From IMG/VR virus record IMGVR_UViG_3300009155_000084, positions 1 through 48,726 of that record: 48,726 nt of DNA; one strand, written 5' to 3'. A program made the translations under genes and the position numbers. Numbering within the stretch: position 1 is the stretch's first letter; each line of letters starts with the position of its first letter. This DNA is from a virus. The notes below the pieces were generated by a model. That model ran no database searches. It was not told where the DNA came from and worked only from the letters and a program-made list of their open reading frames with translations. This document shows, piece after piece, positions 20,438 through 38,079 of this stretch.

Positions 20438-21244
20438 TTATCCGACCATGAAGTTTATTGGGAGTTCGTATTCAAGTTGCACTTGTTGTTCTATTAACTG
20501 AATTTCGGTTTGTGCATCTGCAACAATTTCTGCACCGCGAAGAGTAACACCACCGGGAAGTTGAACACCAGTAAATTTCGACATATTCATTCCCCATTGT
20601 CTTTTGATGAGAGCGGTAACATACTTCTTTAGAAGCCGATCATTATAGATCTCTGTGAACTTGTCTGGGTTTAGAGAAACATATGCTTCAATCAATAGAT
20701 TTCCATTTGCTGCAAGTTCTTGTTGCCAATTCATATCAATGTGAAGTTTATTCGTAACCTTACTGAAGCGAATTGCTTTTTCTGGTTGGAACATATCTTG
20801 AATCATATTGATATAGCGTTTGGTGCTATCGTATTGAGCAAGACCCATATTACGGCTAGACATTAGATTGGTATTAATACCAAAGTAATCTGTTAGTGCC
20901 ATCTGGTATCGAACATCGAACATGGAGATGTTGCTGAATGGACCAAACTGGAACAATTTGACTATAGAAACGATGTCTCTGCCTGTTGGACCGTCACCAC
21001 CGAAACCATTTACTGGACCTAAATTATCGGTGTCGATATATTGATTGGTGATATCAGTTGCGGTAACTGGATACAAGAAGTATGCTTTTTCAACACCGTC
21101 AAAGTGACGCTCTGAGAAGTATTGTAAAGCATCATCAAGTCTATCTTCACATTGCTGCCAGTCTACATTGATATCTACAACAGGTGCGCCCAGTTGTCGC
21201 AATGAATATTCAATAAGGGTTTGTCTTGAACTTGGTGATGCCAT
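20438..21244 (-). CDS. 13: Neck protein gp13
   Basis: The 268-residue head-completion protein (T4 gp13: 309) opens SSRQTLIEYSLRQLGAPVVD, followed by INVDWQQCEDRLDDALQYF, the typical gp13 N terminus. Further typical segments are FGPFSNISMFDVRYQM and MNWQQELAANGNLLIEAYVS. It binds the portal with gp14. It has a strong AAGGAG site, a late box at 21261-21268, and heads the neck-packaging-tail-head block. Confidence 0.95.
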   Translation of the reverse strand: MASPSSRQTLIEYSLRQLGAPVVDINVDWQQCEDRLDDALQYFSERHFDGVEKAYFLYPVTATDITNQYIDTDNLGPVNGFGGDGPTGRDIVSIVKLFQFGPFSNISMFDVRYQMALTDYFGINTNLMSSRNMGLAQYDSTKRYINMIQDMFQPEKAIRFSKVTNKLHIDMNWQQELAANGNLLIEAYVSLNPDKFTEIYNDRLLKKYVTALIKRQWGMNMSKFTGVQLPGGVTLRGAEIVADAQTEIQLIEQQVQLEYELPINFMVG

Positions 21245-21280: not shown

Positions 21281-21871
21281 TTACTTTAAAGGTTCGGAGT
21301 TTAATTTGTTCCCTTGTTGAGCAGCAAGTTTTGCTTGTTGTTCATCCATAGCCTTCTGCATTGCTTCGGGCATATCTGGAAGAGTAACAGGCATCTTGTT
21401 TAGATCTTCAAAGTTGATGTTTTCAATGTAGTACTTACGAGTAATTGGTGGGATTGCTTCATCTGGTTTGCTTGGAGCATAATTAGTAAATCCAGGCATA
21501 GTGATTGGGCAGTTTAACTTTGGATAGTCCAATTTGCTATAGTCTGCACCATTAGCAACCAACCAAGTACCTTGTCTGTCACCACAACCGCAACCACCAC
21601 AGAAGTACTGTCCCTGCGTCTTGCTTTCCTTTAGATGCTCGCATGGTGGAACAACACCGTTGAGGTGCTTATCACCAAAACAACTTAAAACTCTAAGTTG
21701 CTTAGTGGCTCTGTTGATCTTCTTCTCGTTTAGACCACGAGAAGTAAGAGACATGGCAAAACTTTGAATCATTCCAATCTTCTTGGATATGACACTCTTA
21801 TTATCTGGTACGGCAACCGTTCTGAATTCGATGGGATTGGGTTTGCTCGAACAAGACTTATCTTCACTCAT
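21281..21871 (-). CDS. Unknown protein with zinc-ribbon-like cysteine cluster
   Basis: A 196-residue protein with a cysteine/histidine cluster in the middle: C64, C77, H79, C91-G-G-C94-G-C96 and C121-P. The CGGCGC...CP spacing resembles four-cysteine zinc ribbons seen in some phage and bacterial proteins (CxxCGC...CP). A conserved-looking segment follows (KLDYPKLNCPITMPGFTNY) and the C terminus is helical with a Gln/Ala-rich tail. There is no signal peptide. It lies between the last adhesin and gp13 with a GGAG site at the end of the 849-residue gene. It may be an adhesin assembly factor or an unrelated regulatory protein; I cannot tell. Confidence 0.8.
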   Translation of the reverse strand: MSEDKSCSSKPNPIEFRTVAVPDNKSVISKKIGMIQSFAMSLTSRGLNEKKINRATKQLRVLSCFGDKHLNGVVPPCEHLKESKTQGQYFCGGCGCGDRQGTWLVANGADYSKLDYPKLNCPITMPGFTNYAPSKPDEAIPPITRKYYIENINFEDLNKMPVTLPDMPEAMQKAMDEQQAKLAAQQGNKLNSEPLK

Positions 21872-21876
21872 AATAA

Positions 21877-24426
21877 TTACTCCAATTCAATTCTTCTAAT
21901 GCGCCGAACATTAACCTGAGATGTTCTGGGTACTAAGTATATAGATCCGTAATCTGACTTGCTATAACTTTGACCGAACATAAAAGATTGTCCTTTAAAA
22001 ATCTGAGAATCTAGGTTATATGTTGTAACCGATTGTCTCTCAAAATAAGGAGTCGATGTTAAATAAATGCCACTATTCATGGATTTAAATACTTCTGGAA
22101 TAAAGAAACCATGATTTAGTTTAGAGTTAATAAACTCTAATTCATTCTTTGATGGCAAATACCAACCAGACAATTTAGAATTTTCTCGCAGAGTTTCCAT
22201 TGTCTTGCTTTGTATGCCATAATATGTTTGATTGTCGCCATAGGTATTCCATAAACCATCATACATGGATGCTGGAATTACTTCAGTTGGCTCAAACTTA
22301 TCATTTATAGTACTAAGATCATAGTCATTTGTATCAACTATGATTGCCCATCTCTTTGCTGTTGTTCCATATCCAACAACATTTGGAATATACTCAACGG
22401 CAGATCCTGTGTATGGATTACCATTAACCACTGATCCTTGGGTGTTTATTGGTACACCTGGCTCAAATATACCAACATATAAACCATCTTCGTAATATGT
22501 AAGTTCTGAATCTGGAAGTGTGGTTTCTGCTTGTGTTATTTTTTGTACAAATGTTGAAGTACCACAATCTGCATCAACAACAGTATTGCAATCTACGCAA
22601 CCCTCGATTGGATTGTCTGTATTGCAGCACAAACCACCTGTTTTAAATTTACCACCAAGTCTTGTGCAATTTCCTTTATTAGTCTGTATGCATGGAGCAA
22701 CATCAACACACTGACAGCAACTACCATTCATTTGGTTATTACAAATATCCATATCTGGTTCAACAACAGCATAGCAAGAACCTGCATAGCAAGAAAGATC
22801 AAGTATGTCTGTATATGACACTAGTGGTTGCTTTGCAAATACCATATTAGGAAGACCAATTTTTATTATTCTATTGTTTTCATCAACAGCAAAACAAAAA
22901 TCATTTTCTGGTTTTTGATTATCTGGAGCCGCACCATTTATACTAGAACAAGAAACCAGTCTGTATTTTCTATTTAATGGATAAGTGAGCTCGGTGTTCA
23001 GTGAGTTGCATGTCATCATTCCATCTGCATCAATTCCACAGAAAGTATTAGCACCAAGAGATGCTTTGACAAATTCTTTTTTTGGTAAAGATCTGATACT
23101 ACTTCTCAGAGTTTTTAATTCATCCAATTCATTAATAAACGGAGAATAATACTCAAAACTGTTGTCTAGTCTCTGTCCAACAAATCCAAGAGTAGCAAAA
23201 TTAATTTGCATGTTATCTTCACCGTTTCCTGAGGCTTTAGGGTGAACATAAACATTATGTTGATAAAGTTTTTTAAGTTTAGTATTTACGCTTAATGTTT
23301 TAAACTGGTTATTTTTGCCATCATAAAATCTACCATAAATTTTTACTGAATTATCAGTAGTAATATAAGCACTAAATGTTTTTGTTGCTATTAAATCTAA
23401 TACTCTAGGAAGTTGTGATGATGTTGGAATTGGAGAATTTAATGGTGTTTGCAAAAATCTATTTTTAAAGTTTTCGGTTGCAAAATATAATGGTACTGAA
23501 TTGCCAGTTATTAATGCAAAATATCCATCAGTCCATCTGTCTGGTTCTGATGTTGTATAATCCTGAGCATAACCACCCGGACAAAATTTACGCACAGTAG
23601 TAATATTAGTTGTACTAGCGTACACATCACCATTTCCTCTAAATTCGTTTCTTGGTGCTAAAATTAAATCATAAAATTCAGGAACATCTTTGATTTTTAT
23701 TTCAAACACACCTTGATTTATACCTTGTGCAAATCTTCCTGCAAAATTATCATCAAACCATTGTTTTTGACCACACCGAGCATAATCCGGTAGATTCCAA
23801 CAGAATACATTTGTTCCATTTTCACATGAATTTAAAACTCTAGTATTGGTTTCCGACAATTTACATTCATTTGATGCTGGATCTGAAGCTCCAACTTGTT
23901 CAAAACACTTTCTTCCATTATTGTAAAAAGTAGAAGTATATGGATATACTGTTTTTTCTGCACATTCTTTTTCACTACAAACATCTACACAATTTGCATA
24001 AACAGTTCCATCATCATTGTATTCTGGATAGCAACATGCTCTGGGTTCTCTATAATCTAATCTATTTGAATTTTCTAATGTACCAGAAATGCAAAGAGTT
24101 TCTTCTGATTCTGAACAAGTAGAACCTAATGTCCAACGACCACTTAAAGATTCACAATCACATAGAGTTGTTACTGTTGGGCCATCTAACGAACAGGCAC
24201 AGCAACACCCAGTTGATGATGGAGTAATATTTGTATTCTCGTCACAAGTTCCTGCAATAAAATGTCCATTTAGTGAATTACATGCAGAAATCGAAGATTG
24301 TTCTTGCTTTGAAACTGTATTTGACTCTGAATTGTAAGTGTAGCAGCAGCCTGTTATATTATTATTTGTGATATATTGGCTATAATCTACTACTGTTTGT
24401 GATCTTGTTCTAAATTGGATTGACAT
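21877..24426 (-). CDS. Cysteine-rich adhesin with RCC1-like middle and DUF1566/Lcl-type C terminus
   Basis: The 849-residue protein lacks the collagen-like start of its three neighbours and opens directly with cysteine repeats (26-190): units of the type CC...C...C..L.G.F..G..C, for example CDCESLSGRWTLGSTC. Another unit lies near 570-625 (CTRLGGKFKTGGLC). The middle holds stretches like RCC1 propeller blades (ASLGANTFCGIDADGMMTC; CFAVDENNRIIKIG). The C terminus has the DUF1566/Lcl pattern: DGLWNTYGDNQTYYG, then GWYLPSKNELEFINS (about 752-766) and a final VRRIRRIELE strand. These surface-type modules suggest receptor binding at the fibre or baseplate tip. It starts 1 nt after the stop of the previous adhesin. 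Function is inferred from architecture and location. Confidence 0.85.
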   Translation of the reverse strand: MSIQFRTRSQTVVDYSQYITNNNITGCCYTYNSESNTVSKQEQSSISACNSLNGHFIAGTCDENTNITPSSTGCCCACSLDGPTVTTLCDCESLSGRWTLGSTCSESEETLCISGTLENSNRLDYREPRACCYPEYNDDGTVYANCVDVCSEKECAEKTVYPYTSTFYNNGRKCFEQVGASDPASNECKLSETNTRVLNSCENGTNVFCWNLPDYARCGQKQWFDDNFAGRFAQGINQGVFEIKIKDVPEFYDLILAPRNEFRGNGDVYASTTNITTVRKFCPGGYAQDYTTSEPDRWTDGYFALITGNSVPLYFATENFKNRFLQTPLNSPIPTSSQLPRVLDLIATKTFSAYITTDNSVKIYGRFYDGKNNQFKTLSVNTKLKKLYQHNVYVHPKASGNGEDNMQINFATLGFVGQRLDNSFEYYSPFINELDELKTLRSSIRSLPKKEFVKASLGANTFCGIDADGMMTCNSLNTELTYPLNRKYRLVSCSSINGAAPDNQKPENDFCFAVDENNRIIKIGLPNMVFAKQPLVSYTDILDLSCYAGSCYAVVEPDMDICNNQMNGSCCQCVDVAPCIQTNKGNCTRLGGKFKTGGLCCNTDNPIEGCVDCNTVVDADCGTSTFVQKITQAETTLPDSELTYYEDGLYVGIFEPGVPINTQGSVVNGNPYTGSAVEYIPNVVGYGTTAKRWAIIVDTNDYDLSTINDKFEPTEVIPASMYDGLWNTYGDNQTYYGIQSKTMETLRENSKLSGWYLPSKNELEFINSKLNHGFFIPEVFKSMNSGIYLTSTPYFERQSVTTYNLDSQIFKGQSFMFGQSYSKSDYGSIYLVPRTSQVNVRRIRRIELE

Positions 24427-24427
24427 G

Positions 24428-27400
24428 TTAGCAACTTTCGTATGAACTACAATCTGAACACATTATATCTACACAAATGCCTTCAGCAATTTTTACTGTT
24501 TTTGGCTGTAATTTTGTAGTTGGGGCAAATGGAGAAGTTGAAAGCACTGTTGATGAAACCAACAAACCAGTTTTTCCAACACCGACAACCCCATCTGGCC
24601 CTCCCCCCCCAGTAGGAGTACAAGCGGTACACAGACTTCCTCCAGCCTCTTCACCACATTGCGACTGTCTTGTACACCCGGGGCAGCCACCACATACTGC
24701 ATTGCACCCACCACCGCAGGCTGAAACATATAAAATCCACTCATCTCGGTTTATTGGAATAACAATATTGTCACTATATCCCATAGTTTGAACTAAATTT
24801 GTACCACCCATTAGAGGATTAACATCTTCGTGATAAAATACGGTAGCACTTCTAAATGCATCGATATTATATCTTAAATTTCTACCTAAAATTCCGTATT
24901 TAAATTGAAAGTTTTCTCCTCCTTCCGTCATTGCATCAACAAAACTATTTCCTTTTACCAGATATTTTTCTCCAACTTGAGACAATAATTCTGTGCCACC
25001 ATAATAATCAAGTTCTTCTTGATTCCTTGGTGGATAAATCCGTTTAGTAGATGTTATATTTTCAGTTACTGGTGGTGAACCAGTTGCACGGGGGAACCAA
25101 TAACCACCAGTTTCCCAAGGCTGAAGACCAAAGCACGCACCACAGGCTTGTCTACCAAAACCACCAGCAAAACCATATGGATATCTCAGTGCGTTAGGTG
25201 TATTATTACCCCATCCTAACTTTGAAATTCCTTTTAAATATGGATCATATTCATATCGTGGAAGTATACATTCACTTACCAAATCATATGGGAGATAAGC
25301 GCCAATATATGTTTGACTGTTTGCAATTTCAAGCGGTGTGGTTAATTGGGTTATACCATATGTTGAATGACCTAAAGCAACTGCTGCATTTTTATAAAAT
25401 CCATTATTAGATGAACTAATATTAAACTCGGTTTCATCATCTAATATTGGTTTAAGCCAAGATTTAAGATTTCCGCTGAAAGTCTGTTCAATGAGATCTT
25501 TTATTTGATTTTCTGAAAGTAATCTTAAATTAAAAGTATCATCAAACCAATGGTATTGGGCTCCACATGAATTGGTATGGGCATCAAAACTAAGCGACAT
25601 TCTTCCCCATATTGGTGGGAATGGAGCTGGTATATTATTATATGGTTCAATTCTAGCAAACTCTACTTCTTCATTATCGTCAACCTCAAACTTTATTGGT
25701 TTTGTTTCATCACATAGTTTACAAGTTGATGATGCTGTTGTTAATTCTTCATAACCAAATCTTCTAACACATTCTAGTTTATTGTTTTGTGCATTTGATC
25801 GAGAATATGCATAAGCACCAACATAATAACATTTATATTTTCCAGTTACAGCCCACACACTATTTTTTGTACCATAAACATTTGGATTATCTACTGGTGA
25901 TGCTACATTATCCCAATTTTCTGTAAAATATATCAATCCGTTAGAATCAATTTGTAACGGATATGTGCCAGATTTAGCACTTATTGTGGGAGTACCAATT
26001 ATTTCGAAATTTTCTAATTGTGCAGCAAGTTGTGGGTCTACTAAAAATGCTGCTCTATATGGTGCTTCGGAATTATGCTTAACATTTTTTAACCACTGTT
26101 CAGTTCTTTCCCTTTCACTTATCATACTAAACTTTGTTTTACCAAGAATGCCTGAAAGTTGTCTATTGTCTATTATTTCAGGGAAACACCAAAAACATAT
26201 TGCTGACTTTTCACAATCTCCACCTACACCATCATCACACGGACAACTTTCATTGGGATATTCTGGTTCTGCTTGACTACATGGTAAAGTTGCATCCACA
26301 CCAGATACAGAACCACATTGACAATTTACACAGTCTGCATAACAAGTTTTTGTCTGGCAGGTTTGATTTGGAATACATGCTCCATCTGAATATCCATTTT
26401 CTTGACACGATCCACAAGTTTGAATGGTTGTGCAATTTGTTCCATTGCATGTATGGCAAGAAACTGGATTACATTGTCCACTACACGAAGCATCAGAATA
26501 ATATCCAAAGTCAGAACATAAAGTGTTTGGTTCTATTGTTATGGAAGAACATTGACATGTGTTGTTTAGTCTAACACATTGGTAGCAAACATTTGGATTA
26601 CAATTACAATTTATACTACCGCATGTGGTGTTTTTACCCATATAAACACCGCCACTCTCATTGCATTCAAATGGTGTATCTACATTAGTACAGGTATATT
26701 CTTCACCACTTTGTTTGCAACATGCACCGGGTGCTTTGATGTGATCACAGCAAGATGCATCAGAACAACTATTTGCTTTAACACTTATTCCATCGAGATA
26801 CTTACAATGTTCTTCTGTGAGATGACCTAAGCATTCACCGTTTTTACAGCAGATTGTTGGTGTTTTGCATTGGTTATAGCATAGACCAGATTCATCTCCT
26901 TCTGGATCTGAATAGTTTTCTGCACCATCGTCTGGGTATAGTCCAACTTGACCACATGTTATTCCTGATATAAAATAACCACCAACTGTTTGACAGAGAT
27001 TTGGGTCTATATCAGAAATACATCTGCCTTCTGAACAGCAAACACCATCATATTGCTTTTCAGTGTTGTCTACTATGCATGAATTTTTATTGCAGGGAAC
27101 TAAACCCTCAAATGTTCCTTCTCGCTCATCACAGTATGATTGAGTAACATAATCTTCGCAGTGTTTAGTTCCATCCATGTCAATATAGCAGCAAGATCCA
27201 CGAACACCGGGATTACTTACTTTTGTGACACCAAAACCACGAGCAGTAAAGTTGGCTCTCCATACAGAATCAGAACTACTTCTCCACATGTGAAGAATAT
27301 TTGTTCCGGGGTAGAAGATTGGCTTACTTTCTGCATCAAACACAACATCTGTTGGGAAATTCCAAACATCGTCACCTTCTACAACCAAAGTGACAGACAT

Positions 27401-28171
27401 AATCTGCCCGGTTGGAATTGTATCGTATTTGAAACCCTTAATACCAATTGGAGTTGTTAATTGATAAACTGTGGATCTAGAAACATCTAATGTGATACCA
27501 TCTGTATCGACATTATAGAAGTCATCTAGTGTTATGATCTTTTCTCCACGCTGGAATGGACCAACAGAAAGAATAGAATCGGTGATATCGGCAACTACAT
27601 TTCTTCCTGCTGTTTCACCACCAAAATTAACATAACCATAGTGGGAAGTTTCAATTCTATTCGCAACGGTTGTTGATTCTGGAATCAGATCAGTAGACAT
27701 GATGTATGTCTTTTCTTTGACATACACGATTCTATTGTTTTCAGTAGAAGCAGAGATACCACCAGCAGTTGTGTTTGCAGAAATGGTGAATCTTAAAGTA
27801 CCATCTGCATCATAAGTCAAACCAAGTAAACCACTAGTTCTGAAGTTATAGAAATCTAGGGTTATACCACCACAAACACCTTTTAATATGGCATATCCAC
27901 CGCCAACAGAAGAAGCAGTTAATCCTGCATAGATTCCTGTTGCGCCCTGTAAAATACCAGCAGAGGTTGATGTACCATCAGACAGTACTAGTTGAACAGT
28001 ACCGTCTTGGGCAACAACTACTTGAGTTATGTAATTAGAGTCTAGTCCTGTAGCACCAGTTGCACCACGAATAGTTTGTGCTGCGCCTGTGCTTCCTGTT
28101 GGTCCTACTGGTCCAGCAGAACCTGCTCCAGAAGCCGGATATATTGAACTATAACCGATATTATTTGCCAT
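24428..28171 (-). CDS. Large collagen-like, cysteine-rich adhesin
   Basis: At 1247 residues this is the longest of the four adhesins. Order: collagen-like GPVGPTGSTGA...GATGATG (20-42); beta-rich fibre domain (45-320) ending in a VWNFPTDVVF...FYPGTNILHMW segment typical of tail-fibre heads; cysteine repeats from 325 (GSCCYIDMDGTKHC; GVCCSEGRCISD; TICCKNGECLGHLTEEHC; GACCKQSG) followed by a different Cys-dense stretch (CYQCVRLNNTCQC) to about 665; then a ~500-residue C-terminal domain with GAQYHWFDDTFNLRL and a Gly/Cys-rich end (CGGGCNAVCGGCPGC) and a cysteine tail (CSDCSSYESC). I do not see the WYLPS motif found in its relatives. An 8-base G run lies at codons 1188-1190. Receptor binding is inferred. 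Confidence 0.85.
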   Translation of the reverse strand: MANNIGYSSIYPASGAGSAGPVGPTGSTGAAQTIRGATGATGLDSNYITQVVVAQDGTVQLVLSDGTSTSAGILQGATGIYAGLTASSVGGGYAILKGVCGGITLDFYNFRTSGLLGLTYDADGTLRFTISANTTAGGISASTENNRIVYVKEKTYIMSTDLIPESTTVANRIETSHYGYVNFGGETAGRNVVADITDSILSVGPFQRGEKIITLDDFYNVDTDGITLDVSRSTVYQLTTPIGIKGFKYDTIPTGQIMSVTLVVEGDDVWNFPTDVVFDAESKPIFYPGTNILHMWRSSSDSVWRANFTARGFGVTKVSNPGVRGSCCYIDMDGTKHCEDYVTQSYCDEREGTFEGLVPCNKNSCIVDNTEKQYDGVCCSEGRCISDIDPNLCQTVGGYFISGITCGQVGLYPDDGAENYSDPEGDESGLCYNQCKTPTICCKNGECLGHLTEEHCKYLDGISVKANSCSDASCCDHIKAPGACCKQSGEEYTCTNVDTPFECNESGGVYMGKNTTCGSINCNCNPNVCYQCVRLNNTCQCSSITIEPNTLCSDFGYYSDASCSGQCNPVSCHTCNGTNCTTIQTCGSCQENGYSDGACIPNQTCQTKTCYADCVNCQCGSVSGVDATLPCSQAEPEYPNESCPCDDGVGGDCEKSAICFWCFPEIIDNRQLSGILGKTKFSMISERERTEQWLKNVKHNSEAPYRAAFLVDPQLAAQLENFEIIGTPTISAKSGTYPLQIDSNGLIYFTENWDNVASPVDNPNVYGTKNSVWAVTGKYKCYYVGAYAYSRSNAQNNKLECVRRFGYEELTTASSTCKLCDETKPIKFEVDDNEEVEFARIEPYNNIPAPFPPIWGRMSLSFDAHTNSCGAQYHWFDDTFNLRLLSENQIKDLIEQTFSGNLKSWLKPILDDETEFNISSSNNGFYKNAAVALGHSTYGITQLTTPLEIANSQTYIGAYLPYDLVSECILPRYEYDPYLKGISKLGWGNNTPNALRYPYGFAGGFGRQACGACFGLQPWETGGYWFPRATGSPPVTENITSTKRIYPPRNQEELDYYGGTELLSQVGEKYLVKGNSFVDAMTEGGENFQFKYGILGRNLRYNIDAFRSATVFYHEDVNPLMGGTNLVQTMGYSDNIVIPINRDEWILYVSACGGGCNAVCGGCPGCTRQSQCGEEAGGSLCTACTPTGGGGPDGVVGVGKTGLLVSSTVLSTSPFAPTTKLQPKTVKIAEGICVDIMCSDCSSYESC
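24603..24610 (-). repeat. 8-bp G homopolymer inside an adhesin gene
   Basis: On the minus strand eight consecutive G residues, closely followed by GGG, lie in the codons for TPTGGGGPDG near the end of the 1247-residue adhesin. It is one of the longest G runs in this AT-rich window. Slippage would alter the last ~58 residues, including the cysteine tail. Confidence 0.85.
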
Positions 28172-28182
28172 TAATTACTCTC

Positions 28183-31101
28183 TCATCTACAGGAAGAACA
28201 TGTGTACAAGGATTTAAAACTATATTCGAATTGGTTTTTGAAATCCTTGTTTTTAAAGTATATAGGAACCATGCGACATGCCCTGAGTTTGGCTGTAGAA
28301 GAGGACTTTAGCGAAGAAACCATCTTACCTGTGCTAAAATCTTGAGTATATGCTCTATGTGCTTGAGCGAGTTTGTACTTTCTCCAAGTATCAGTTAGTG
28401 GATCTCCAATAGTAACTATTCCCTCTAATGAATTGTTCTGAGGATCATATGTCTTCATACCATATTCACCAGTTTGAAGTGTTTTAGAATCTAGTAGTCT
28501 TCCACCTGTGGTAGAAGACCAATACTTAGATGGGGACAGCGTTGTCCAACCAGTTGTTGCATTATAAATTAAACCAGCATTAATTGCATCCATGTTGTAA
28601 TACATGATGTTCAATTCAAGTGCGCTTGGAATATACCAATCGGAATATCCATTGTATGATTCTTTATTCTTGCTGCTGATGTGATATAGTGCAGTGTTTT
28701 CTGTATTTACTGCATACCACATTTCAGTATACTTGGACTTAAAGTATTCGGAATTTCTACCAATTTGATTTTGATCAATTGTTGATTGCCAATATGAAAG
28801 TCTGCTATGGTTGAATCTCTGATATGCAAGAGGATCTATGGTTTCTAGTTTGCCATTTAGAGTGTAGTTACTTGCAATGAACCATGTATTTCTTTCAATT
28901 GATGTTTCATCAAACAATCTAGTGTTTAGCAATCCATCAAATACGGTTGTTCCATATGGAGTAAGAACATTGTTCTGCCATAAAGAATTGCTATAGTTTT
29001 CAAATCCACTTGGTGTGCTGAAACCATTGACAGACATGCTCATACCAAAAGAAACATTATCTGTGGTGAATTCTTCTGGTGCTACAACCAATATCCATGC
29101 GCTTGGAATATCTGATCCATAGACTTGAGATGCATATTGTTTATATGCAAGTGCTGGATTAAATCCATACTTCTTATACTCTGGTCCATTATCATTACAT
29201 GCTTTTCCTTCATCAAGCAGACAAGCATCGGTTAGTCTGTTATAGAATGTGAGATTGACTTTATCAACTACACCGGATAGAGACTTAACATCCGAGACAT
29301 ATACCTTACCACCACTCTTGCTCAAAGCACTAAGATCAACATAACGAGATGGTGAGAAGTTAGAGCAATTGCACTTTATAGATCCATTATAAACACCATT
29401 TACGGGGACATATCTCTTAATGGTCGCTGTTGTGTAATTTTCTATTTCTGAGATTACTTCGCCTTTAGCAAAGTAGCCATCAGTATTGAAACCAATTGGT
29501 GCTGGATACCCAACAAATCCAGCCACAATTCCACCTTGGAAATAATCACCAATTTTTAATCCGGCTGGAATTGATGCTCCTGCATCTGTTGCGACAGCAG
29601 CAAGACGGAAATTTGGAGTGGTTTGTGAATCTTTACAGCACTCAGAGGAAGAACAAATGCTTCCTGGTCCTTGGAATACACCACCAAGAGTTAATAAGCA
29701 TTCTTTTGGTGTTATGTCATCTCTGCAATCGTCTATACCAATGCAGCACGCACCCAAGAATCCGTCGATGCAGCAATTTCTTTCATCACATGGTGTTGCT
29801 TCGTATTTTCCTTTGAGTTCATTGCATAGGTCTTGTGATGCAGAACTATCTGGTAGAGAATAGCAAATACCATTTACGCAGCAAGATGCATCAAGAGGGC
29901 AATTACTTGGACATCCTTCTTCGAGTTGATTGCATTTTACATTTGGATAAAATTTGCCATATACTTTAGAACAGAGTTCTTGATTAGTTTCCAAACAAAC
30001 ACCATTCACACAGCAAGAGCCACCAGAATAGCAATCACCAGTTAAATATCTTTCATTGCATGACTTGAAACTAAAATTACCGCTGATAGATTCACAGAAT
30101 TCTTGTGATGTATAATCTAAGCATGAACGATGAACCATGCTGTTTGTATCATTTGCATCTTTACTACAATAGCAGCACGAACCGATAATCGAACTCTTGT
30201 ATGTTTCGGTGGAATATGTTATTCCCTTACCAACCACATCTATTTGAACAGGACCTGTGACTTTACCACCAACTGTAATTCCTTCTGCACGGAATGAAAG
30301 TTTTGGATATACATTTTTTGCAGAGTCTGTTACTGTTATGAAAACGCCCTGATCAGTTCTGTTAAATACATTTGATGTATTCTGAACAGTTGAATAACCA
30401 GCGTTAATTGTATTTAAATATGAAGAAACATTTGCCTGAGTTGTTGTATTGATCCAATTTATATTATTAATAATACCAAATGTAAATCCGGTTGTATAAT
30501 CTTGACTTACTTTAAATCGGAATGTATCTAATGTTGTACCAAATAAACTTCCGGTAACTGGAGTAATTTTAGATCTATAATAGTTTGTGTTTAGATCATT
30601 AGTTGCATCTATTTTTTGACCAAATCCTGCATCGGTGATGTACAACAAACTACCAGTTTTTCCAACGGCAGCATTTGTTGTGCCCGGAGTTGCAAGATAG
30701 AATGAATCTAAACTAATACCACCAGTTATTTCACCAACTAATTTTATAGTTTTGAAGTTTAATGAATATGGATTAGTTAATGAGAAGCCACCAAATATGC
30801 TTACGGCATCTACATCAGATGAACCAGTAAATGTAATTTTAAAGTTTGGGTTTGGATCTCTATATGAAGATCCTTTTGGAGCAGTAACACCAACGGAGAA
30901 GTAAGTATTTCCTTGGTATGTTATTCCCAAAATATAGTTTTGAATTAAAGCAGAAACAAACTGAATACCAGTTGCACCAGTAGGTCCAGTAACAGAATAA
31001 CCAGTTATTCCACGAGGACCTGTAGATCCTGTCGGTCCTGTAACATAACGAACACCCGCAGAAACTAGATTATTTGGTATGGATGATGAACCGAATATCA
31101 T
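28183..31101 (-). CDS. Collagen-like, cysteine-rich adhesin with DUF1566/Lcl-type C terminus
   Basis: A 972-residue paralogue of the flanking adhesins. Order: collagen-like GPTGSTGPRG...GPTGATG (22-45); beta-rich fibre domain (46-305); four to five cysteine repeats (307-489), for example GSCCVNGVCLETNQELC and GACCIGIDDCRDDITPKEC; and a DUF1566/Lcl-type domain (about 515-955) that opens LKIGDYFQGGIVAGFV and carries DWYIPSALELNIMYYNMD, PSKYWSSTTGG and a LRACRMVPIYF strand. It ends with another Cys pair (CSSCR). Its ATG overlaps the stop of the upstream adhesin by one base, with an AGGGAT site. The architecture implies a surface ligand-binding fibre protein; the target is unknown. Confidence 0.87.
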   Translation of the reverse strand: MIFGSSSIPNNLVSAGVRYVTGPTGSTGPRGITGYSVTGPTGATGIQFVSALIQNYILGITYQGNTYFSVGVTAPKGSSYRDPNPNFKITFTGSSDVDAVSIFGGFSLTNPYSLNFKTIKLVGEITGGISLDSFYLATPGTTNAAVGKTGSLLYITDAGFGQKIDATNDLNTNYYRSKITPVTGSLFGTTLDTFRFKVSQDYTTGFTFGIINNINWINTTTQANVSSYLNTINAGYSTVQNTSNVFNRTDQGVFITVTDSAKNVYPKLSFRAEGITVGGKVTGPVQIDVVGKGITYSTETYKSSIIGSCCYCSKDANDTNSMVHRSCLDYTSQEFCESISGNFSFKSCNERYLTGDCYSGGSCCVNGVCLETNQELCSKVYGKFYPNVKCNQLEEGCPSNCPLDASCCVNGICYSLPDSSASQDLCNELKGKYEATPCDERNCCIDGFLGACCIGIDDCRDDITPKECLLTLGGVFQGPGSICSSSECCKDSQTTPNFRLAAVATDAGASIPAGLKIGDYFQGGIVAGFVGYPAPIGFNTDGYFAKGEVISEIENYTTATIKRYVPVNGVYNGSIKCNCSNFSPSRYVDLSALSKSGGKVYVSDVKSLSGVVDKVNLTFYNRLTDACLLDEGKACNDNGPEYKKYGFNPALAYKQYASQVYGSDIPSAWILVVAPEEFTTDNVSFGMSMSVNGFSTPSGFENYSNSLWQNNVLTPYGTTVFDGLLNTRLFDETSIERNTWFIASNYTLNGKLETIDPLAYQRFNHSRLSYWQSTIDQNQIGRNSEYFKSKYTEMWYAVNTENTALYHISSKNKESYNGYSDWYIPSALELNIMYYNMDAINAGLIYNATTGWTTLSPSKYWSSTTGGRLLDSKTLQTGEYGMKTYDPQNNSLEGIVTIGDPLTDTWRKYKLAQAHRAYTQDFSTGKMVSSLKSSSTAKLRACRMVPIYFKNKDFKNQFEYSFKSLYTCSSCR

Positions 31102-33896
31102 TATTGATTATCCCTCAGAAGATTTGGAGTCTTCCATAATTTATATTGCTCTGAAGTCGATGCTGGTATTTTTCCATCACATCTCAATGCTCGTATTGGT
31201 CTAACTTTAAGTTCTGTGCTTCTGCTTTCTTTCTTAACCATAAAGTTAGTAGAATCACCATTAGAATCAAAATACATTGCCCATGCAACTGAACCATGTT
31301 CTGGTTTTCCAGAAGTATATACACCTTCAGTTGTTGAAGTTATATCAAAGGAACCAGTTGAAGACCAGTGCCAATCATATAAAGGAACTCCACCATTCGA
31401 AAGCAGGTAAGAATTTGCATTGAATCCATAATATGGATTGGTTGAATCGCTGACAGTATTTGCAGCAATAAATGCTAATTCATCATGACTTGGAAGATAC
31501 CAATCTGTAATTTGACTTGGATTCCCAGTTAATCCATAGGAATTTGTATATGAACCATTGTCAAATAGTTTTACTGCACGAATTGCTGTAATGTCTGTAC
31601 CAGATGAGAATTCATTTGATGTGAAATATGGAGAACGATTCAATTTCAAGTAATCTGCATTATCGGCAGATAGCATACGAATGGTATTGTAAAGACCCCA
31701 GTTTCTATTCCACAGACCATTAGCAGATTTCACATTTCGTGTAAACAATCTGGCAACTGGATCTGTTCCGTTCTTTCTGGTGGAATAGCAAGATTGGAAA
31801 GTTACATTTTTAATAGTATCAAGCGATTCACCAGTTACACCGTAGTATCCTTCACCATATCTCAAGTATGAGGAATCATATGATTGTGTAAGATAGGTGA
31901 AATCATCATAGGTGTAATTTGTAAGATTTAGAATTGGACCCCATGCAATACCATCACCATACCAAGGGAATGTATCTGCATAAGCCAATTCTTCTGTTGG
32001 ATTTACTGCATTTCCCTCGTCATCAACAGATGCAGGATATAGTGAAACTATGATGTAATATGAATCAGCGTCTTGTGATACTGATGTTAGGCAGGATTCT
32101 CCTGTTACACCATAACCGACATAATCATTTTCGCTTGTGTAGTAACCAGCACCAGTTTCACCACCATACATGAATGACGCAGTTACACCTTGTCGTGAGA
32201 ATGCATGTGCGCCACCTAATAGTTTTGAATTTCTTGGATTGTATATTCCAACGACCATACCACCACCGATTAAATCACCGGGGCGTAGGGTGAATCCAAG
32301 ATAACCACCACATGTTAGTTGTGATGCACATGTTATACCACTGCATGATGTTCCACTACCATGATAATTTCCATTGTTGGAAAAACAGGTATAAGCATCA
32401 GTTACGGTGCATGTTCCATTTGTATAGCAACAAGCACCACTTCCAGATGAACATGTTGGATTTGTGTCATCAGAATAGCAAAGAACTCCTCTGCCCAAGA
32501 AACTACCACCAGAAGCAATACAATCTTCTTTTGTTAGATCTTTGCAGTTTCCTTTACCATCGCAGCAACCACCAGTTTCTTGGAAACATGTTTCGCAGTT
32601 AACATCTTTGCATGTCTTGTCTACACCAGTAAATACTGATTCAACAGAATCATTATTCAACATTAGGCAATCAAACGGTGATACATTCTCGATGCAGTAT
32701 GTTGAAATCTGTCCATCTGTAGTATTCTTGACGCAGCATGAACCAACAGATTCACTGCAAACACTAGTAGAACCTATTACACCGCATGTAGTACCAATAC
32801 CAGAGAAGAATCCATCACACAAACCATCTGTTGTGATTTCACATGTTCCATCGCCTTTACAACAGGCTCCTGTGATACCAGAATAAAAGTCTAAAACTTT
32901 AAGTGCATTTTGTGTGTAATTTCCTACAACAGTATTGCAGAAGTAATTACCACTACCTCCAACTTTATTGAAGATATAACCATACCATGTATTTTTCACT
33001 GAGATAAAATGGATGACATAGTTTTCACCACTTCTAAAACATGGCTGTCTATTGAATGGGAATACTACAGGAACTCCATCTAAATCTTTAAAACTGATAC
33101 CACTATAATTTGCAGGAGACACACCATTTTGTATGTGTAAAGTAATTGCTAGTGGTGATACTGATGGTCTTGGTAAATTAATTCCTATAAAATTAGTTCC
33201 AGTATTATTTAAATCTAAAGAATAAATTTTTGGATTTGTCGTATTAGTATCTGTACCAGTATTCAAAGTAGCAATTGAAAACAACGAACCATTTGAACTT
33301 GTAGTAATAGAAGAAGAATTTGCTCCACTAGTTCTCTCAAATACATTTACTTTGTTTATCTGAACCGTGTCTGCAAGATTTAAATACTTTGCAGCACCAA
33401 GAGTTACACCAATTAATTTTCCGTTAGAATCTGTTGCTAATATTTGAGCAAGAGTTCCTGCACTTATTCCATACTCGCCGTCATATCGATCTACGGAAAT
33501 TGTAATTGTATTTGAATCTGCGGTTACACCGATGTTTGATCTATAACCAGTGCTTCCCTTAATTGTTCGTAGTTGAACAACTCGTTCGGATGCGGTTGCT
33601 CCAACGAACACATAACCAGTTCCAGTAGAACCAGTTTTGCCATCAAAGTAAATTACCGTGTTTCCAGTTATACCATAAAGCAAACCAGAGGCAGCATAAG
33701 TTGTGCCATTGGTGAAACGGGTGATTAGTGTAAACCCAGATAGGGTTATACCAGAAACAATCTTTACAGCAGTAGCACCAGTAGGACCAATATAATCACT
33801 ACCTCTTGGACCTTGAGGTCCAGTAGGACCTGTAATTCCATAGATTGTGATTCCTTTTATGGCTTTAAACTGGCTACTACCACGAATTGATGCCAT
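31101..33896 (-). CDS. Collagen-like, cysteine-rich adhesin with DUF1566/Lcl-type C terminus
   Basis: The 931-residue protein is the clearest example of the family. Order: collagen-like GPTGPQGPRG...GPTGAT (23-42); beta-rich region with a FPFNRQPCFRSGENYVIHFI fibre-head segment (279-298); four cysteine repeats (343-523): GACCKGDGTCEITTDGLC, GSCCVKN, GGCCDGKGNCKDLTKEDC, GACCYTNGTCTVTDAYTC; then a DUF1566/Lcl-type domain from about 537 (LRPGDLIGGGMVVGIYN) with DWYLPSHDELAFIAAN, YDWHWSSTGSF and a final ELKVRPIRALRCD. The gene starts after a good AGGAATCTAAT site, 1 nt from the preceding stop. It is probably a receptor-binding tail component. Confidence 0.88.
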   Translation of the reverse strand: MASIRGSSQFKAIKGITIYGITGPTGPQGPRGSDYIGPTGATAVKIVSGITLSGFTLITRFTNGTTYAASGLLYGITGNTVIYFDGKTGSTGTGYVFVGATASERVVQLRTIKGSTGYRSNIGVTADSNTITISVDRYDGEYGISAGTLAQILATDSNGKLIGVTLGAAKYLNLADTVQINKVNVFERTSGANSSSITTSSNGSLFSIATLNTGTDTNTTNPKIYSLDLNNTGTNFIGINLPRPSVSPLAITLHIQNGVSPANYSGISFKDLDGVPVVFPFNRQPCFRSGENYVIHFISVKNTWYGYIFNKVGGSGNYFCNTVVGNYTQNALKVLDFYSGITGACCKGDGTCEITTDGLCDGFFSGIGTTCGVIGSTSVCSESVGSCCVKNTTDGQISTYCIENVSPFDCLMLNNDSVESVFTGVDKTCKDVNCETCFQETGGCCDGKGNCKDLTKEDCIASGGSFLGRGVLCYSDDTNPTCSSGSGACCYTNGTCTVTDAYTCFSNNGNYHGSGTSCSGITCASQLTCGGYLGFTLRPGDLIGGGMVVGIYNPRNSKLLGGAHAFSRQGVTASFMYGGETGAGYYTSENDYVGYGVTGESCLTSVSQDADSYYIIVSLYPASVDDEGNAVNPTEELAYADTFPWYGDGIAWGPILNLTNYTYDDFTYLTQSYDSSYLRYGEGYYGVTGESLDTIKNVTFQSCYSTRKNGTDPVARLFTRNVKSANGLWNRNWGLYNTIRMLSADNADYLKLNRSPYFTSNEFSSGTDITAIRAVKLFDNGSYTNSYGLTGNPSQITDWYLPSHDELAFIAANTVSDSTNPYYGFNANSYLLSNGGVPLYDWHWSSTGSFDITSTTEGVYTSGKPEHGSVAWAMYFDSNGDSTNFMVKKESRSTELKVRPIRALRCDGKIPASTSEQYKLWKTPNLLRDNQ

Positions 33897-33897
33897 A

Positions 33898-35106
33898 TTA
33901 GATTCCTAGTATTTGTTCTAATGCTTGAATCCGTGCTTCTAGTGCTACGAGTTTTGCATCAACATCTGCGACATTAGGAGTGGACAATGTATCTGATACT
34001 TCTATGCTATTGAAGATAGCAGAATCTGGTAAGTATGATACTGTTGTATCTGCTTTGACTCGTAGCAGTGTTTTTGTATTGAATGTGGAAATTTGATTTG
34101 AAGTTCCAGCATTTGCTTCGATATTTGTTGAGAGTTTTGGTGTCTTGAAGTGTGTGATTTGTCCAGAAGTTACGGTTACACGATTCAAACCAAGAACTGG
34201 AACTTGTAACTCATATGTTGTATAAGTGGAATTCCACAATTCTTCTTGTTGCGTTATATGATCTAATACTATTGTGTTGTTTGCTGTATCTACTGAAGTG
34301 ACAAATGCGTATGCTCCAACTCCCTTTCCGGTTGTTGGGCTAATTGGTCTTATTGATTGTTGTGCTAGAGCAGAAACAAAGGAGTAAGAACCATTTACGG
34401 ATAATTGTTCATATGAACCATAATCAGTTCCATAGATGTTATATGCATCACTGTATGATGTTATGGACAAAACTTGTGGTGTGCTTGTGTCAACCCAACC
34501 ATCTGGAACATTTGAATTTGAATCAACAGTTTGTATTGATCCAATATTTGATGTGCTTCTAGTGACTGTGTAGTTTTCAGCAGCAGATGATTCGTAGCCA
34601 AGGTAATTGATTACAAGACTGTTGTATAATTCATCAGAAGTTGGGCAAACCTGAAGAACTGGTTTGACAATGTAACCAGTTTCTTCAATGAACTCAAAGG
34701 TAACCCCACCAAGTACAGTTGGGCTTAGGAAGAAAATATCAGTTCCACCCGCACCACCCTCGGTTCCACTTATACCACTGATTATACCTAAAAGATTTGG
34801 ATAGTTCATTAAACCATGTGTAACGATGGTTGCATATGTGACACCACTTGTTGCCTGTGCTATGGATTCAACTACACCAACTACTTCTGCTTGCGATAGA
34901 TTAAAAGTTTCACTATAGTATGGATTTGCAATTGATTGAGTGAACTTACTATTAGCCACATCATAACGAATAACATTACCAGCAGCAATGGTTGAATCCC
35001 AATTCTTGCTAGTATCTTGCTTAAAAGACAACCGCTTACCATTGATGGTATCGGTTGAAGTTACGAGCATTCCTGTGATTGTAGAGTTATTAGTGCAAGA
35101 TGGCAT
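33898..35106 (-). CDS. Fibre-type structural protein with C-terminal coiled coil
   Basis: A 402-residue beta-rich protein. Residues about 40-170 (AGNVIRYD, then AEVVGVVESI, ATIVTHG, GGTDIFFLSP, GYIVKPVLQV, LVINYLGY) follow the same order of strands as a module in the 615-residue fibre gene at 36232-38079, so the two share a domain. The middle (SDAYNIYGTDYGSYEQLSVN) is Ser/Tyr/Asn-rich. It ends in a heptad coiled coil (VDAKLVALEARIQALEQIL), a common trimerisation motif of fibre proteins. The ribosome site is AAGGAACATAA. I infer a fibre or fibre-adaptor role. Confidence 0.8.
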   Translation of the reverse strand: MPSCTNNSTITGMLVTSTDTINGKRLSFKQDTSKNWDSTIAAGNVIRYDVANSKFTQSIANPYYSETFNLSQAEVVGVVESIAQATSGVTYATIVTHGLMNYPNLLGIISGISGTEGGAGGTDIFFLSPTVLGGVTFEFIEETGYIVKPVLQVCPTSDELYNSLVINYLGYESSAAENYTVTRSTSNIGSIQTVDSNSNVPDGWVDTSTPQVLSITSYSDAYNIYGTDYGSYEQLSVNGSYSFVSALAQQSIRPISPTTGKGVGAYAFVTSVDTANNTIVLDHITQQEELWNSTYTTYELQVPVLGLNRVTVTSGQITHFKTPKLSTNIEANAGTSNQISTFNTKTLLRVKADTTVSYLPDSAIFNSIEVSDTLSTPNVADVDAKLVALEARIQALEQILGI

Positions 35107-35115
35107 TTATGTTCC

Positions 35116-36225
35116 TTATGTTTCCAGACCTCTATCGTATGGACTATAATCTAAATCGGCATCTGCAACCATATGAACTAAAATATCATCAAAAACTACT
35201 GCACCAGTTGCAACATTGAATGCCACTCCATATGTAGTTCCAGAAGTTGTGAGTGTCGCTGCACCAGTTGGAGAGAATCTTGTTACTTGATTCCAACCGC
35301 GAGTTCCAGATGTTAGTCTCATATCTTTTACTGCGGTTTTGTTGTAACCATCATTAGCAACACCACTATCGGGTGAATATAGAGTGATTGATGGTGATTT
35401 TCTCATCGGTGTGTTGAAGTGATAATTGTATGTGTAATTTGGAGTTACAGTAAAGTCTATTGAAGTTAGATCATTACCACCAACTGTGGTGATTGTTCCT
35501 GGCAGAGTTGTTACTGGATAACTTGTGTAATAATATTTTGCTTGTCTAGTTTTTTCTTCTTCGGAATCTGTGTACATTACTGTAGAGATTGATCCGACTT
35601 CTAATTGTACTGAACTTATACTTACTGTAGTATTTGGCTGTATCTTAAAACCAACACCAAAATAATGATCACCCGATATACCAGAATTTGAAACATATGG
35701 TGGAAGAAAAGTAAATGAATATTGTTGCCAATATGAATCAATCGGTGCAATTGAAAACATACTTTTGTATTCAGTTGTGTTTGGGCTTACTGCTTCTCTA
35801 AAATAACAACCCAAAGTGGTTCCAGTTACACCGGCAGAATATTTTGCGTAAAAAGAAAGAGTTAATGGAATTCCACCATATTTTGTGGAATTTTCTTGTT
35901 TATTTTCTAAATAGCAATAGCCACCAGTTACGGATGTGATATTGTTTGCAACTGTAATATAGTATTTTGAACGACTATATTGCTCATCGCTCTTACTAAA
36001 TAGTTCTCTATAAATGGAAATAGAACCAGTGCTTCCTCCGGTTCTTTTTTGAGTATCTATTGCATACCATCTATCTGCTGTTTTTTCTGTTTGTGCAGTG
36101 TATGTTGTGCCACTAGCTCCGATGTTTGAGTACTTTGCATTATATGGTATGGTAAAGGTTGTTCCCCTTTGCCATAAATCAAAATTACCGTTTATTATTA
36201 AATTAGATGTGTTTTGATTTGTCAT
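35116..36225 (-). CDS. Tail protein with carbohydrate-binding-module-like fold
   Basis: The 369-residue protein opens TSNLIINGNFDLWQRGTTF and then has TADRWYAID, the hallmark of a common phage tail protein family related to CBM4/9-type jelly rolls. It also carries the VQLEVGSISTVMYTDSEEEK motif (about 205-224) with the following ARYYYTSY-like QAKYYYTSYP, which in these proteins closes the jelly roll. The C-terminal ~130 residues form a further beta domain. It probably binds surface glycans or decorates the baseplate or fibre. It lies in the fibre cluster; the ribosome site is weak, so coupling to the upstream gene is likely. Confidence 0.83.
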   Translation of the reverse strand: MTNQNTSNLIINGNFDLWQRGTTFTIPYNAKYSNIGASGTTYTAQTEKTADRWYAIDTQKRTGGSTGSISIYRELFSKSDEQYSRSKYYITVANNITSVTGGYCYLENKQENSTKYGGIPLTLSFYAKYSAGVTGTTLGCYFREAVSPNTTEYKSMFSIAPIDSYWQQYSFTFLPPYVSNSGISGDHYFGVGFKIQPNTTVSISSVQLEVGSISTVMYTDSEEEKTRQAKYYYTSYPVTTLPGTITTVGGNDLTSIDFTVTPNYTYNYHFNTPMRKSPSITLYSPDSGVANDGYNKTAVKDMRLTSGTRGWNQVTRFSPTGAATLTTSGTTYGVAFNVATGAVVFDDILVHMVADADLDYSPYDRGLET

Positions 36226-36231
36226 TTTTTA

Positions 36232-38079
36232 TTAACCAAATTGAGTTGAAGGCCAACCACTAATACTATACGAGTTTGGAATAAATGTATATTTACTTGA
36301 AACAATAATTGGACTTCCAGTTGTTGTTCGTGTATTTGTATCGAACTTATACATTTCTAATAAAATGTTACAATTAAATTGTTGAGTTGGCATTACACCA
36401 GAATTATTATACAAATATGAAACTGGAGTGAAATAAAGATTTTCACAAATTGCACCATATGCTGCATTCCATCCTAGTATTGCACTTTCCAAAGTATATC
36501 CAGAAGCACCAGTCATCTGATCCATGAATTTATTTTCGCAAGATGCTTGAATATATTTTGAAGCGTCAGAACCAACACCACCAAGAGTTATATTATTGAT
36601 ATTAAATGATGATGGTTTTGTGGCGGGGTTCCCGCCGGCGGTGCCGGCGGGAGTATATACGATTGGATATGAACCATTTGAATCTGGAATACTTATCGTT
36701 CCAGCAGTCAATCCATATGTAAATATTTGATTACTTTGTGGAGTATATCTGAGGGGTTGAATAATTGGAGTTATTAAATCAGAAGCAGTGTTAGTTTGGC
36801 TAGTATAGGTGGAACTGCTACCCGCTATTAAATAAACTCCATTTATTGAATAACCATTTCTTCTAATTTCTATTCTTAGATTAGAATTATCTTGAACTGA
36901 GATATTACTGTCATTAAAATATGTTGAAGTAATAGTAGTTCCAGCATATGTGCTATACTGTTTGTTTAGCGAAAAGGTAAAATATGATGGACTAAAATCT
37001 TTTTCTGGAATTATTTTAATATTTGTTAATTTATAGACATCCGCAGTTATACCACTTGTTGAAAACAGAAAACCATCGTTAGTAAAATTTGAAATATAAT
37101 CTACTTTAATTGTTGTCGAACCAGATGAAGAAGTAGTAGAAGTTTCATTTGAAGTTAGTGGATAAAGAATACCAGAATTATTTTTGTTAGCAATACTGGT
37201 TTCTAATTTATTTGGTGTATTAAGTTTTAAATCTAATTTCTTTGTTAAACGACCGTTGCCTGTACTAGTATTTACTGTAATATACATCAATCCATGTACA
37301 TGACCAGTTGTTCTGAGGTTTTTATCCTGCGGGGTTGTACCAGTATCCCACAGAGCAGCAGTGATACCGTTAATACTCAACACACCACTTGTTGCAGTTG
37401 CATTTGTGGATGAAGAACTACTTGCGGCAGTCAAACCAATATAACCACGATATGGAAGAATTAATCCAGTATCACCAGTTAAACCAAGAAGCATTGGCTT
37501 AGAAACATAACTTGTAACATCTGGTTCGAGTGTAGTACCAGCACCAGAGACTCCACCACTCAGGAAGTAAACTACACCTTTCTGAAGTGTAGCACCTGCG
37601 GTTCCTAAAAAGTTTGCAACAACAGATGAACCACTTACTTTACCAGTAGTAGCCACTTGTGCATTTCCACCAGTAAATCCTATAACAACACCCACTACTT
37701 CTGATGTGCATTCGTCGTTGGCTAGTGCTTTTTCTAGTCTACCAGTAGAATCTAGGTAGACTATATTTCCAACAGTAACACCGGAATTTGCTGGTAGAAC
37801 AACATTAATACCCGAAACATCTACACCATAACTTGATGATAAAACACCATTTATAGTAACATTACCATTGAATGTTACATTTTTGCTTATAGTACTAGCA
37901 ATGTCTAATGTATAGCCACCCTGTGTGGAAGTTTGTGGCCTGACAAGAATACCATCTCCTCCGGTTATACCTCCAACTTTGAGAGCATTTAACCGGGTAA
38001 TCATCTCATTCGTCTTGGCGTACCAAGCACCGAATGTTGTTCCAAGACTTATTGAGTTTATTGAGGTAAAGTCAGACAT
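36232..38079 (-). CDS. Tail fibre-like structural protein
   Basis: A 615-residue beta-rich protein. The N terminus (SLGTTFGAWYAKTNEMITRL, then NALKVGG) resembles the attachment segment of T4-like marine fibre proteins. A repeated-strand part follows (KNVTFNGNVTINGVL). Residues about 95-220 (VGNIVYLDSTGRLEKALAND, SEVVGVVIG, GVVYFLSGGVSG, KPMLLGL) share a module with the 402-residue protein. A short GC-rich, hairpin-forming segment encodes TPAGTAGGNPATKP (about codons 474-488). The ribosome site is AGGATAAT. It is likely a fibre or short tail fibre subunit. Confidence 0.83.
   Translation of the reverse strand: MSDFTSINSISLGTTFGAWYAKTNEMITRLNALKVGGITGGDGILVRPQTSTQGGYTLDIASTISKNVTFNGNVTINGVLSSSYGVDVSGINVVLPANSGVTVGNIVYLDSTGRLEKALANDECTSEVVGVVIGFTGGNAQVATTGKVSGSSVVANFLGTAGATLQKGVVYFLSGGVSGAGTTLEPDVTSYVSKPMLLGLTGDTGLILPYRGYIGLTAASSSSSTNATATSGVLSINGITAALWDTGTTPQDKNLRTTGHVHGLMYITVNTSTGNGRLTKKLDLKLNTPNKLETSIANKNNSGILYPLTSNETSTTSSSGSTTIKVDYISNFTNDGFLFSTSGITADVYKLTNIKIIPEKDFSPSYFTFSLNKQYSTYAGTTITSTYFNDSNISVQDNSNLRIEIRRNGYSINGVYLIAGSSSTYTSQTNTASDLITPIIQPLRYTPQSNQIFTYGLTAGTISIPDSNGSYPIVYTPAGTAGGNPATKPSSFNINNITLGGVGSDASKYIQASCENKFMDQMTGASGYTLESAILGWNAAYGAICENLYFTPVSYLYNNSGVMPTQQFNCNILLEMYKFDTNTRTTTGSPIIVSSKYTFIPNSYSISGWPSTQFG
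36622..36651. repeat. GC-rich overlapping inverted repeats
   Basis: On the plus strand CCCGCCGGC (36631-36639) and GCCGGCGGG (36643-36651) form a perfect 9-bp stem with a 3-nt loop. The same CCCGCC can instead pair with GGCGGG at 36622-36627 (6 bp, 3-nt loop). The two hairpins exclude each other. The surrounding DNA is AT-rich, so the element stands out sharply. Confidence 0.85.

Follow-up and report, generated by a model that had tools for sequence, protein, structure and literature searches.

Disulfides are known from phage particles, being proven in the virion of phage Milano, whose receptor-binding proteins (RBPs) are disulfide-linked (PMC10811340), and abundant in the capsid of phage 7-7-1 (PMC12796354). 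The Legionella protein Lcl, in turn, is a trimer in which a collagen-like stalk carries a glycan-binding head that is C-type-lectin-like and lacks disulfides (PMC11162425). In animals, the extracellular domain of the signalling protein iRhom2, stapled by 8 disulfide bonds, has been called unprecedented, and no PDB structure resembling it was found (PMC11248996); the iRhom homology domain (IRHD) has two structured regions as well as the 8 disulfides (PMC11248996, PMC8233286). Here, we analyzed a cassette of four cysteine-rich genes, termed P1 to P4, in the virus record IMGVR_UViG_3300009155_000084 of an uncultured aquatic bacteriophage, a 48,726-nucleotide stretch of DNA hereafter called the window. 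With a probability of roughly 70%, we read the four genes as encoding tail fibres or adhesins of a T4-like myovirus, built from a collagen-like base, a disulfide-ribbed shaft and a lectin-like tip.

An earlier note on this DNA, made from the sequence alone, had described four consecutive genes of 849, 1247, 972 and 931 residues, and open reading frames (ORFs) of these lengths indeed lie on the minus strand at the positions it gave (Table 1). With 4.7%, 5.8%, 3.6% and 3.3% cysteine in P1 to P4, corresponding to 31-72 cysteines apiece, they stand apart from the remaining listed window ORFs (0-2.3%), except for an adjoining gene encoding a protein of 196 amino acids (aa; 3.6%). Many of these cysteines fall into a repeated unit of about 37 residues with the consensus GACC-x2-DG-x-C-x7-C-x3-GG-x-F-x-G-x-G-x2-C-x4-C. 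A hidden Markov model (HMM) built from an alignment of the window units recognized 15 units (4+4+4+3) and, in P1, a further degenerate one, matching the figure of about 15 shared repeats in the earlier note. Models trained only on the units of the other genes gave summed scores of 88.3, 89.7, 85.7 and 41.5 bits for P4, P3, P2 and P1, all above the maxima reached by 300 cysteine-fixed shuffles per gene (24.7, 29.6, 23.1 and 20.7 bits, respectively). P1 was the weakest of the four and contained one clear unit. The repeat form proposed earlier, with five cysteines, had to be extended by a sixth, which most often follows exactly 5 residues past the fifth (85/205 units in phages, 277/419 in bacteria); all six cysteines were present in 676 of 999 full-length units. 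This even number makes three internal disulfides per unit possible, and co-loss of cysteines offered too few cases among the units to guide their pairing. AlphaFold2 modeling of two tandem units, supported by 94 related sequences, predicted a beta-beta-alpha-beta arrangement twice over (mean pLDDT 78), for which Foldseek returned no significant match among viral models. The repeats did not align to unrelated known domains gene by gene, an outcome that the earlier note had named as refuting. In the four phage proteins, neither Pfam nor NCBIfam matched the unit, and phmmer searches with the full-length cassette proteins yielded no significant match in the PDB.

Kinship within the cassette is graded. 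By hhalign, P3 and P4 align over 465 columns covering the N-terminal part and the units (E = 1e-37), P3 and P2 over 195 columns covering the units and a short flank (E = 1e-25), and P1 and P4 over one unit only (E = 3e-6). The four genes had been taken for paralogues; this holds for P3-P4 and P3-P2, but P1 is clearly similar to the other cassette proteins only in single units, so that the four are not equal paralogues. Reading of the translations showed short collagen-like GPTG tracts at the start of P2, P3 and P4, in keeping with the three such starts of the earlier note, and the Pfam Collagen family was matched only in single orthologues. P2 carries a second cysteine-dense stretch of different spacing (aa 524-662) after its four CC units.

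The genomic position argues for a fibre function. The window is a 48.7-kb fragment of a T4-like myovirus and encodes an SbcCD-like nuclease, a late sigma factor, UvsY, gp23, scaffold, portal, sheath, terminase and the gp14/gp13 neck proteins, followed by the fibre slot and then the baseplate wedge genes. The cassette occupies this T4 fibre slot (gp8 to gp13), between the baseplate-wedge genes and gp13/gp14. The major capsid protein shares 55-57% identity with those of T4-like cyanophages, and gp13 is closest to marine single-cell viruses, Methylophilales phages and pelagiphages (about 39-43%). A cyanophage assignment was rejected, as psbA/psbD (PF00124) appeared in 0/21 and 0/17 records, which may be fragments. 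The sheath gene encodes only 383 aa versus about 729 aa in cyanophage P-SSM2, and its phrog_23 match is limited to aa 190-375.

At their C termini, P1, P3 and P4 weakly resemble the Pfam family Lcl_C (PF07603, DUF1566), with E-values of 0.006, 3e-5 and 0.008, respectively. Among orthologues, this likeness reached E <= 0.05 in 12/12 cases for P3 (best 3e-7), 7/12 for P4 (best 3e-4) and 6/6 for P1 (best 4e-4). The sole PDB match of a P3 C-terminal profile was 8q4e, listed as 'HbP1' (E = 0.026), which we interpret as the C-terminal domain of Lcl. Position in the fibre slot, collagen-like starts and Lcl_C-type C termini thus all fit the adhesin or fibre nature first suggested for these proteins.

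The cassette is maintained in related phages. We found it at about 25 loci on separate IMG/VR contigs, down to ~27% identity, and the order gp6 ... 615-369-402-P4-P3-P2-P1-196aa-gp13 (numbers denoting ORF lengths in aa) is kept in those loci as far as each contig reaches. Compared with the relative L011 (27-32% identity), 83%, 82%, 62% and 57% of the cysteines of P4, P3, P2 and P1 are kept, versus 31%, 31%, 24% and 26% of the other residues. Across 12 P4 orthologues, nearly every unit cysteine is invariant, the sixth included. Distant relatives carry 2 to 8 units per gene, and one of them encodes a 1466-aa protein with 140 cysteines; two others (L261 and L263) have 14-15 recognized units, with ORFs of 1943 and 1683 aa and 10-11.5% cysteine beside the 196-aa gene. 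Four further viral contigs found by pattern (L173, L187, L192 and L201) encode proteins with 8-13 units. Because of its spacing, a strict first DNA pattern for the unit matched no phage locus, and a relaxed version was used. Searching named phages by tblastn with P3, P4, the proteins of three relatives, the 37-aa consensus and an 82-aa repeat pair returned no relative of the cysteine-rich proteins, although tblastn may still miss short units; as controls, the capsid protein matched 2532 records and gp13 1149. The clade is large and, in the collection searched, has no named relative.

Together, these findings suggest fibres in which a short collagen-like base at the start of P2, P3 and P4 would be followed by a shaft ribbed by the six-cysteine beta-beta-alpha-beta units; the tip that ends P1, P3 and P4 would probably be akin to the C-terminal domain of Lcl. 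We infer that the proteins form trimers, are present in the virion and bear glycan-binding tips. Oxidation would most likely take place during or after release, with up to three disulfides then holding each unit and rendering the shaft stiff and protease-resistant. Several points weigh against this reading. Myoviruses assemble in the reducing cytoplasm, glutaredoxin was found in 0/17 related records, and sulfhydryl oxidase (PF04777) was not found either, but its control was silent too. At 17-24.5 bits, the window proteins score under the Lcl_C gathering cut-off of 34.9, and the AlphaFold2 model of the P3 C terminus was unusable (pLDDT 37). The latter failure leaves the tip fold unconfirmed and, combined with the missed cut-off, is why we do not claim membership of the Lcl family. 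Finally, the unit cysteines could bind metal instead of forming disulfides.

Under such a metal-binding scheme, Zn or Fe-S would occupy the units, the 196-aa protein would serve as metal donor or chaperone, and the shafts would be stable even in a reducing cytoplasm. Cytoplasmic assembly favours this scheme, and so does the 196-aa protein itself: its six cysteines (C64, C77, C91, C94, C96 and C121), invariant in 19 orthologues, include a CxxCxC spacing that typifies metal or Fe-S sites, and it accompanies cysteine-rich ORFs, located upstream of its gene, in 46 of 48 loci (39 of 48 with a recognized CC unit). These 48 loci, kept for having >=2.5 kb upstream, come from the best-matching 80, so the sample leans to close relatives. 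However, bacterial proteins carry the unit too, many of them with signal-peptide-like starts, and it matches an iRhom extracellular domain that is stapled by disulfides (PMC11248996), making metal binding a distinctly improbable alternative to the disulfide-ribbed shaft. Two loci (L268 and L278) have the 196-aa gene, yet neither a cysteine-rich ORF nor a CC unit upstream; their upstream ORFs of >200 aa are cysteine-poor (0.3-2.0%). Relatives of the 196-aa protein occur in at least 593 IMG/VR contigs and in none of 50,697 named phage records, and PDB and Pfam scans assigned it to no family. Candidate roles are a structural neck or fibre adaptor, a metal protein or a redox helper, and the gene may serve to mark a large phage clade that lacks named relatives.

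We then consider where variation sits. P3 is 96% and 89% identical to the window in L004 and L003, respectively. P2 is about 90% or more identical to both in its first 400 residues and mostly 18-59% after residue ~600; the product of the 615-aa ORF (ORF615) drops from about 85% to 30-50% identity with L003 in its second half. Between near-identical phages, the most variable parts are the C-terminal halves of P2 and ORF615, outside the CC repeats, and changes in specificity are likely to arise mainly in these tails rather than in the units. This bears on the idea that the units themselves are receptor- or carbohydrate-binding modules instead of stiffeners, with unit number tuning avidity. Unit number does vary among distant relatives, up to the 14-15 of L261 and L263, and the matching iRhom2 region lies in a domain that contacts ADAM17 (PMC11248996). 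On the other side, the units belong to the more conserved parts in closer relatives, the P2 and ORF615 tails being those that vary, and receptor-binding surfaces usually vary most; we consider a binding role of the units unlikely and retain the stiffening one.

The earlier note had also argued that tandem paralogues with shared repeats would permit recombination that changes host range. Each window repeat, however, found its best match in the same gene in L002 (15/15) and L003 (15/15), so that unit recombination between genes is unsupported at this distance, and we reject shuffling among the four genes for relatives at about 60-88% identity. In L012 and L018, same-gene best matches numbered 11/15 and 6/15, with several units there under the detection threshold. 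Diversification by a diversity-generating retroelement, prompted by the DUF1566-type domain, was rejected as well: a reverse transcriptase (PF00078) was found in 0/26 records, which may be fragments, with a positive control.

Outside phages, the unit also occurs in Planctomycetota. Scanning 84,980 genomes with a DNA pattern for the unit gave listed matches mostly in Phycisphaerae and other Planctomycetota, with scattered others, some by chance. This bears out the earlier note, which had described such repeats as common in predicted secreted proteins of some aquatic bacteria; here these are mostly Planctomycetota. Among the listed bacterial ORFs, the phage-derived HMM matched 106 of 115, with up to 16 units per ORF, a figure favoured because these ORFs had been selected through part of the motif. 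A simple heuristic assigned 65 of the 115 a signal-peptide-like start, and some bacterial unit proteins carry dockerin or multicopper-oxidase domains. Pfam placed no family over the units in nine scanned bacterial proteins or the four window proteins. The phages might then infect Planctomycetota and mimic surface proteins of these hosts, with units copied from a planctomycete surface module. The predominance of Phycisphaerae and other Planctomycetota in the listed matches and the high match rate of the phage-derived HMM point that way. Yet no host evidence was found, the capsid and neck genes have their closest counterparts in cyanophages, pelagiphages and Methylophilales phages, and the bacterial set was chosen by motif from the listed matches; we rate this reading as rather improbable.

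A further relative emerged from profile searches against PDB sequences, all of which put iRhom first. A phage-only single-unit profile matched iRhom1 at 9e-8 and iRhom2 at 4e-6, the two-unit profile and a profile of the window's own 15 repeats each matched iRhom at 3e-4, and a bacteria-only profile did so at 0.0087. The unit aligns to two stretches of the iRhom1 ectodomain, to the second over all six cysteines and to the first only partly, and cysteine-fixed shuffles of the iRhom segments reached the real score in 0/2000 cases each. Among 350,542 chains searched by Foldseek with the AlphaFold2 two-unit model, four iRhom chains took ranks 1-4, with weak E-values of 0.2-0.4 and probabilities of 0.35-0.57. 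The cysteine pattern might nonetheless be a low-complexity or convergent feature of cysteine-rich fibres, its likeness to iRhom and planctomycete proteins being coincidental. The units are short, the E-values for iRhom shift with the profile used (9e-8 to 0.0087), and those of Foldseek are no better than 0.2-0.4. Against coincidence stand the shuffles, which fell short of the real scores both for the phage proteins (0/300 per gene) and for the iRhom segments, the agreement of profiles from three sets and the Foldseek ranking, and we think coincidence unlikely. Homology between unit and iRhom is plausible on profile and model evidence, though not proven, with convergence as the alternative. We give about even odds to the broader proposal that one mobile disulfide domain is common to phage fibres, secreted Planctomycetota proteins and the iRhom ectodomain; the IRHD would then be a derived form, with two diverged copies, of a module that aquatic bacteria and their phages possess in abundance. 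No paper linking the unit to iRhom was found within the open-access library searched.

Table 1. Cassette genes, units and neighbouring features of the window
Feature	Position	Residues (aa)	Strand	Remarks
P4, 931 aa	31101..33896		-	Collagen-like N terminus, four CC units, Lcl_C-like C terminus
P4 unit 1	32757..32870	343-380	-	Unit HMM
P4 unit 2, long loop	32595..32744	385-434	-	Unit HMM
P4 unit 3	32451..32573	442-482	-	Unit HMM, AlphaFold2 model
P4 unit 4	32328..32438	487-523	-	Unit HMM, AlphaFold2 model
P4 Lcl_C-like stretch	31191..31514	795-902	-	Below curated cut-off
P3, 972 aa	28183..31101		-	Collagen-like N terminus, four CC units, Lcl_C-like C terminus
P3 unit 1	30031..30183	307-357	-	Unit HMM
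P3 unit 2	29911..30021	361-397	-	Unit HMM
P3 unit 3	29773..29889	405-443	-	Unit HMM
P3 unit 4	29638..29754	450-488	-	Unit HMM
P3 Lcl_C-like stretch	28498..28716	796-868	-	Below curated cut-off
P2, 1247 aa, 72 Cys	24428..28171		-	Collagen-like N terminus, four CC units, second Cys-dense stretch, variable C-terminal half
P2 unit 1	27077..27199	325-365	-	Unit HMM
P2 unit 2	26954..27046	376-406	-	Unit HMM; next Cys only at aa 431
P2 unit 3	26750..26857	439-474	-	Unit HMM
P2 unit 4	26606..26728	482-522	-	Unit HMM
P2 second Cys-dense stretch	26186..26602	524-662	-	Different spacing
P2 variable C-terminal region	24572..26551	~541-1200	-	Mostly 18-59% identical to L003, L004
P1, 849 aa	21877..24426		-	Degenerate CC units near N terminus, one clear unit, Lcl_C-like C terminus
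P1 degenerate unit 1	24244..24354	25-61	-	Unit HMM; missed by models from other genes
P1 degenerate unit 2	24091..24210	73-112	-	Unit HMM; missed by models from other genes
P1 very degenerate unit	23905..24039	130-174	-	Weak match, models from other genes
P1 clear unit	22624..22725	568-601	-	Unit HMM, also models from other genes
P1 Lcl_C-like stretch	21982..22176	751-815	-	Below curated cut-off
196-aa protein	21281..21871		-	Just upstream of gp13, between P1 and gp13; linked cassette partner
gp13-type head-tail adaptor (Ad2)	20438..21244		-	Fibre-slot boundary
402-aa ORF	33898..35106		-	Order beside cassette kept; without family match
369-aa ORF	35116..36225		-	Resembles phage tail-fibre families (phrog_4492)
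615-aa ORF	36232..38079		-	C-terminal half variable
Sheath gene	15555..16706		-	383 aa

Overall, a small disulfide-type domain would build the fibres of a widespread phage clade without a match among the named phages searched. The analysis names the P2 and ORF615 tails as the likely specificity-determining parts and the 196-aa gene as a linked marker, and it offers a possible bacterial and viral relative for the iRhom extracellular domain, a structure without a known relative. It also raises the question of how a lytic phage folds fibre proteins so rich in cysteine in a reducing cytoplasm.

Set against described systems, the cassette resembles Lcl in its short collagen-like starts and in C-terminal stretches weakly similar to Lcl_C, and the phage proteins would therefore work like Lcl in outline; a CC-unit shaft is not described for Lcl, whose C-terminal domain has no disulfides (PMC11162425), and the window proteins, scoring under the family cut-off, are phage genes in a T4 fibre slot. 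Cyanophage P-SSM2, in which gp6-gp7-gp8-[fibres]-gp13-gp14 is annotated, has the same position and flanking genes, but its fibre-slot proteins contain 0-0.6% cysteine. The Agrobacterium phages Milano and 7-7-1 are likewise contractile-tailed and have disulfides in the particle (PMC10811340, PMC12796354); the bonds described there are networks that run inside and across sheath, baseplate, RBP and capsid proteins rather than a tandem small disulfide domain. Because of these two precedents, disulfide hardening of a phage particle, which the earlier note had called an unusual way to harden fibres, is not unique, and the disulfides of the cassette itself are still something that we infer. Cysteine-rich proteins of Planctomycetota (Phycisphaerae) contain the same GACC..DG.C...C...GG...C....C unit in tandem, but are cellular and in many cases have signal-peptide-like starts. 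The iRhom IRHD, finally, shares the six-cysteine spacing and flanking residues of the phage unit and differs in presenting two diverged copies within a membrane pseudoprotease.

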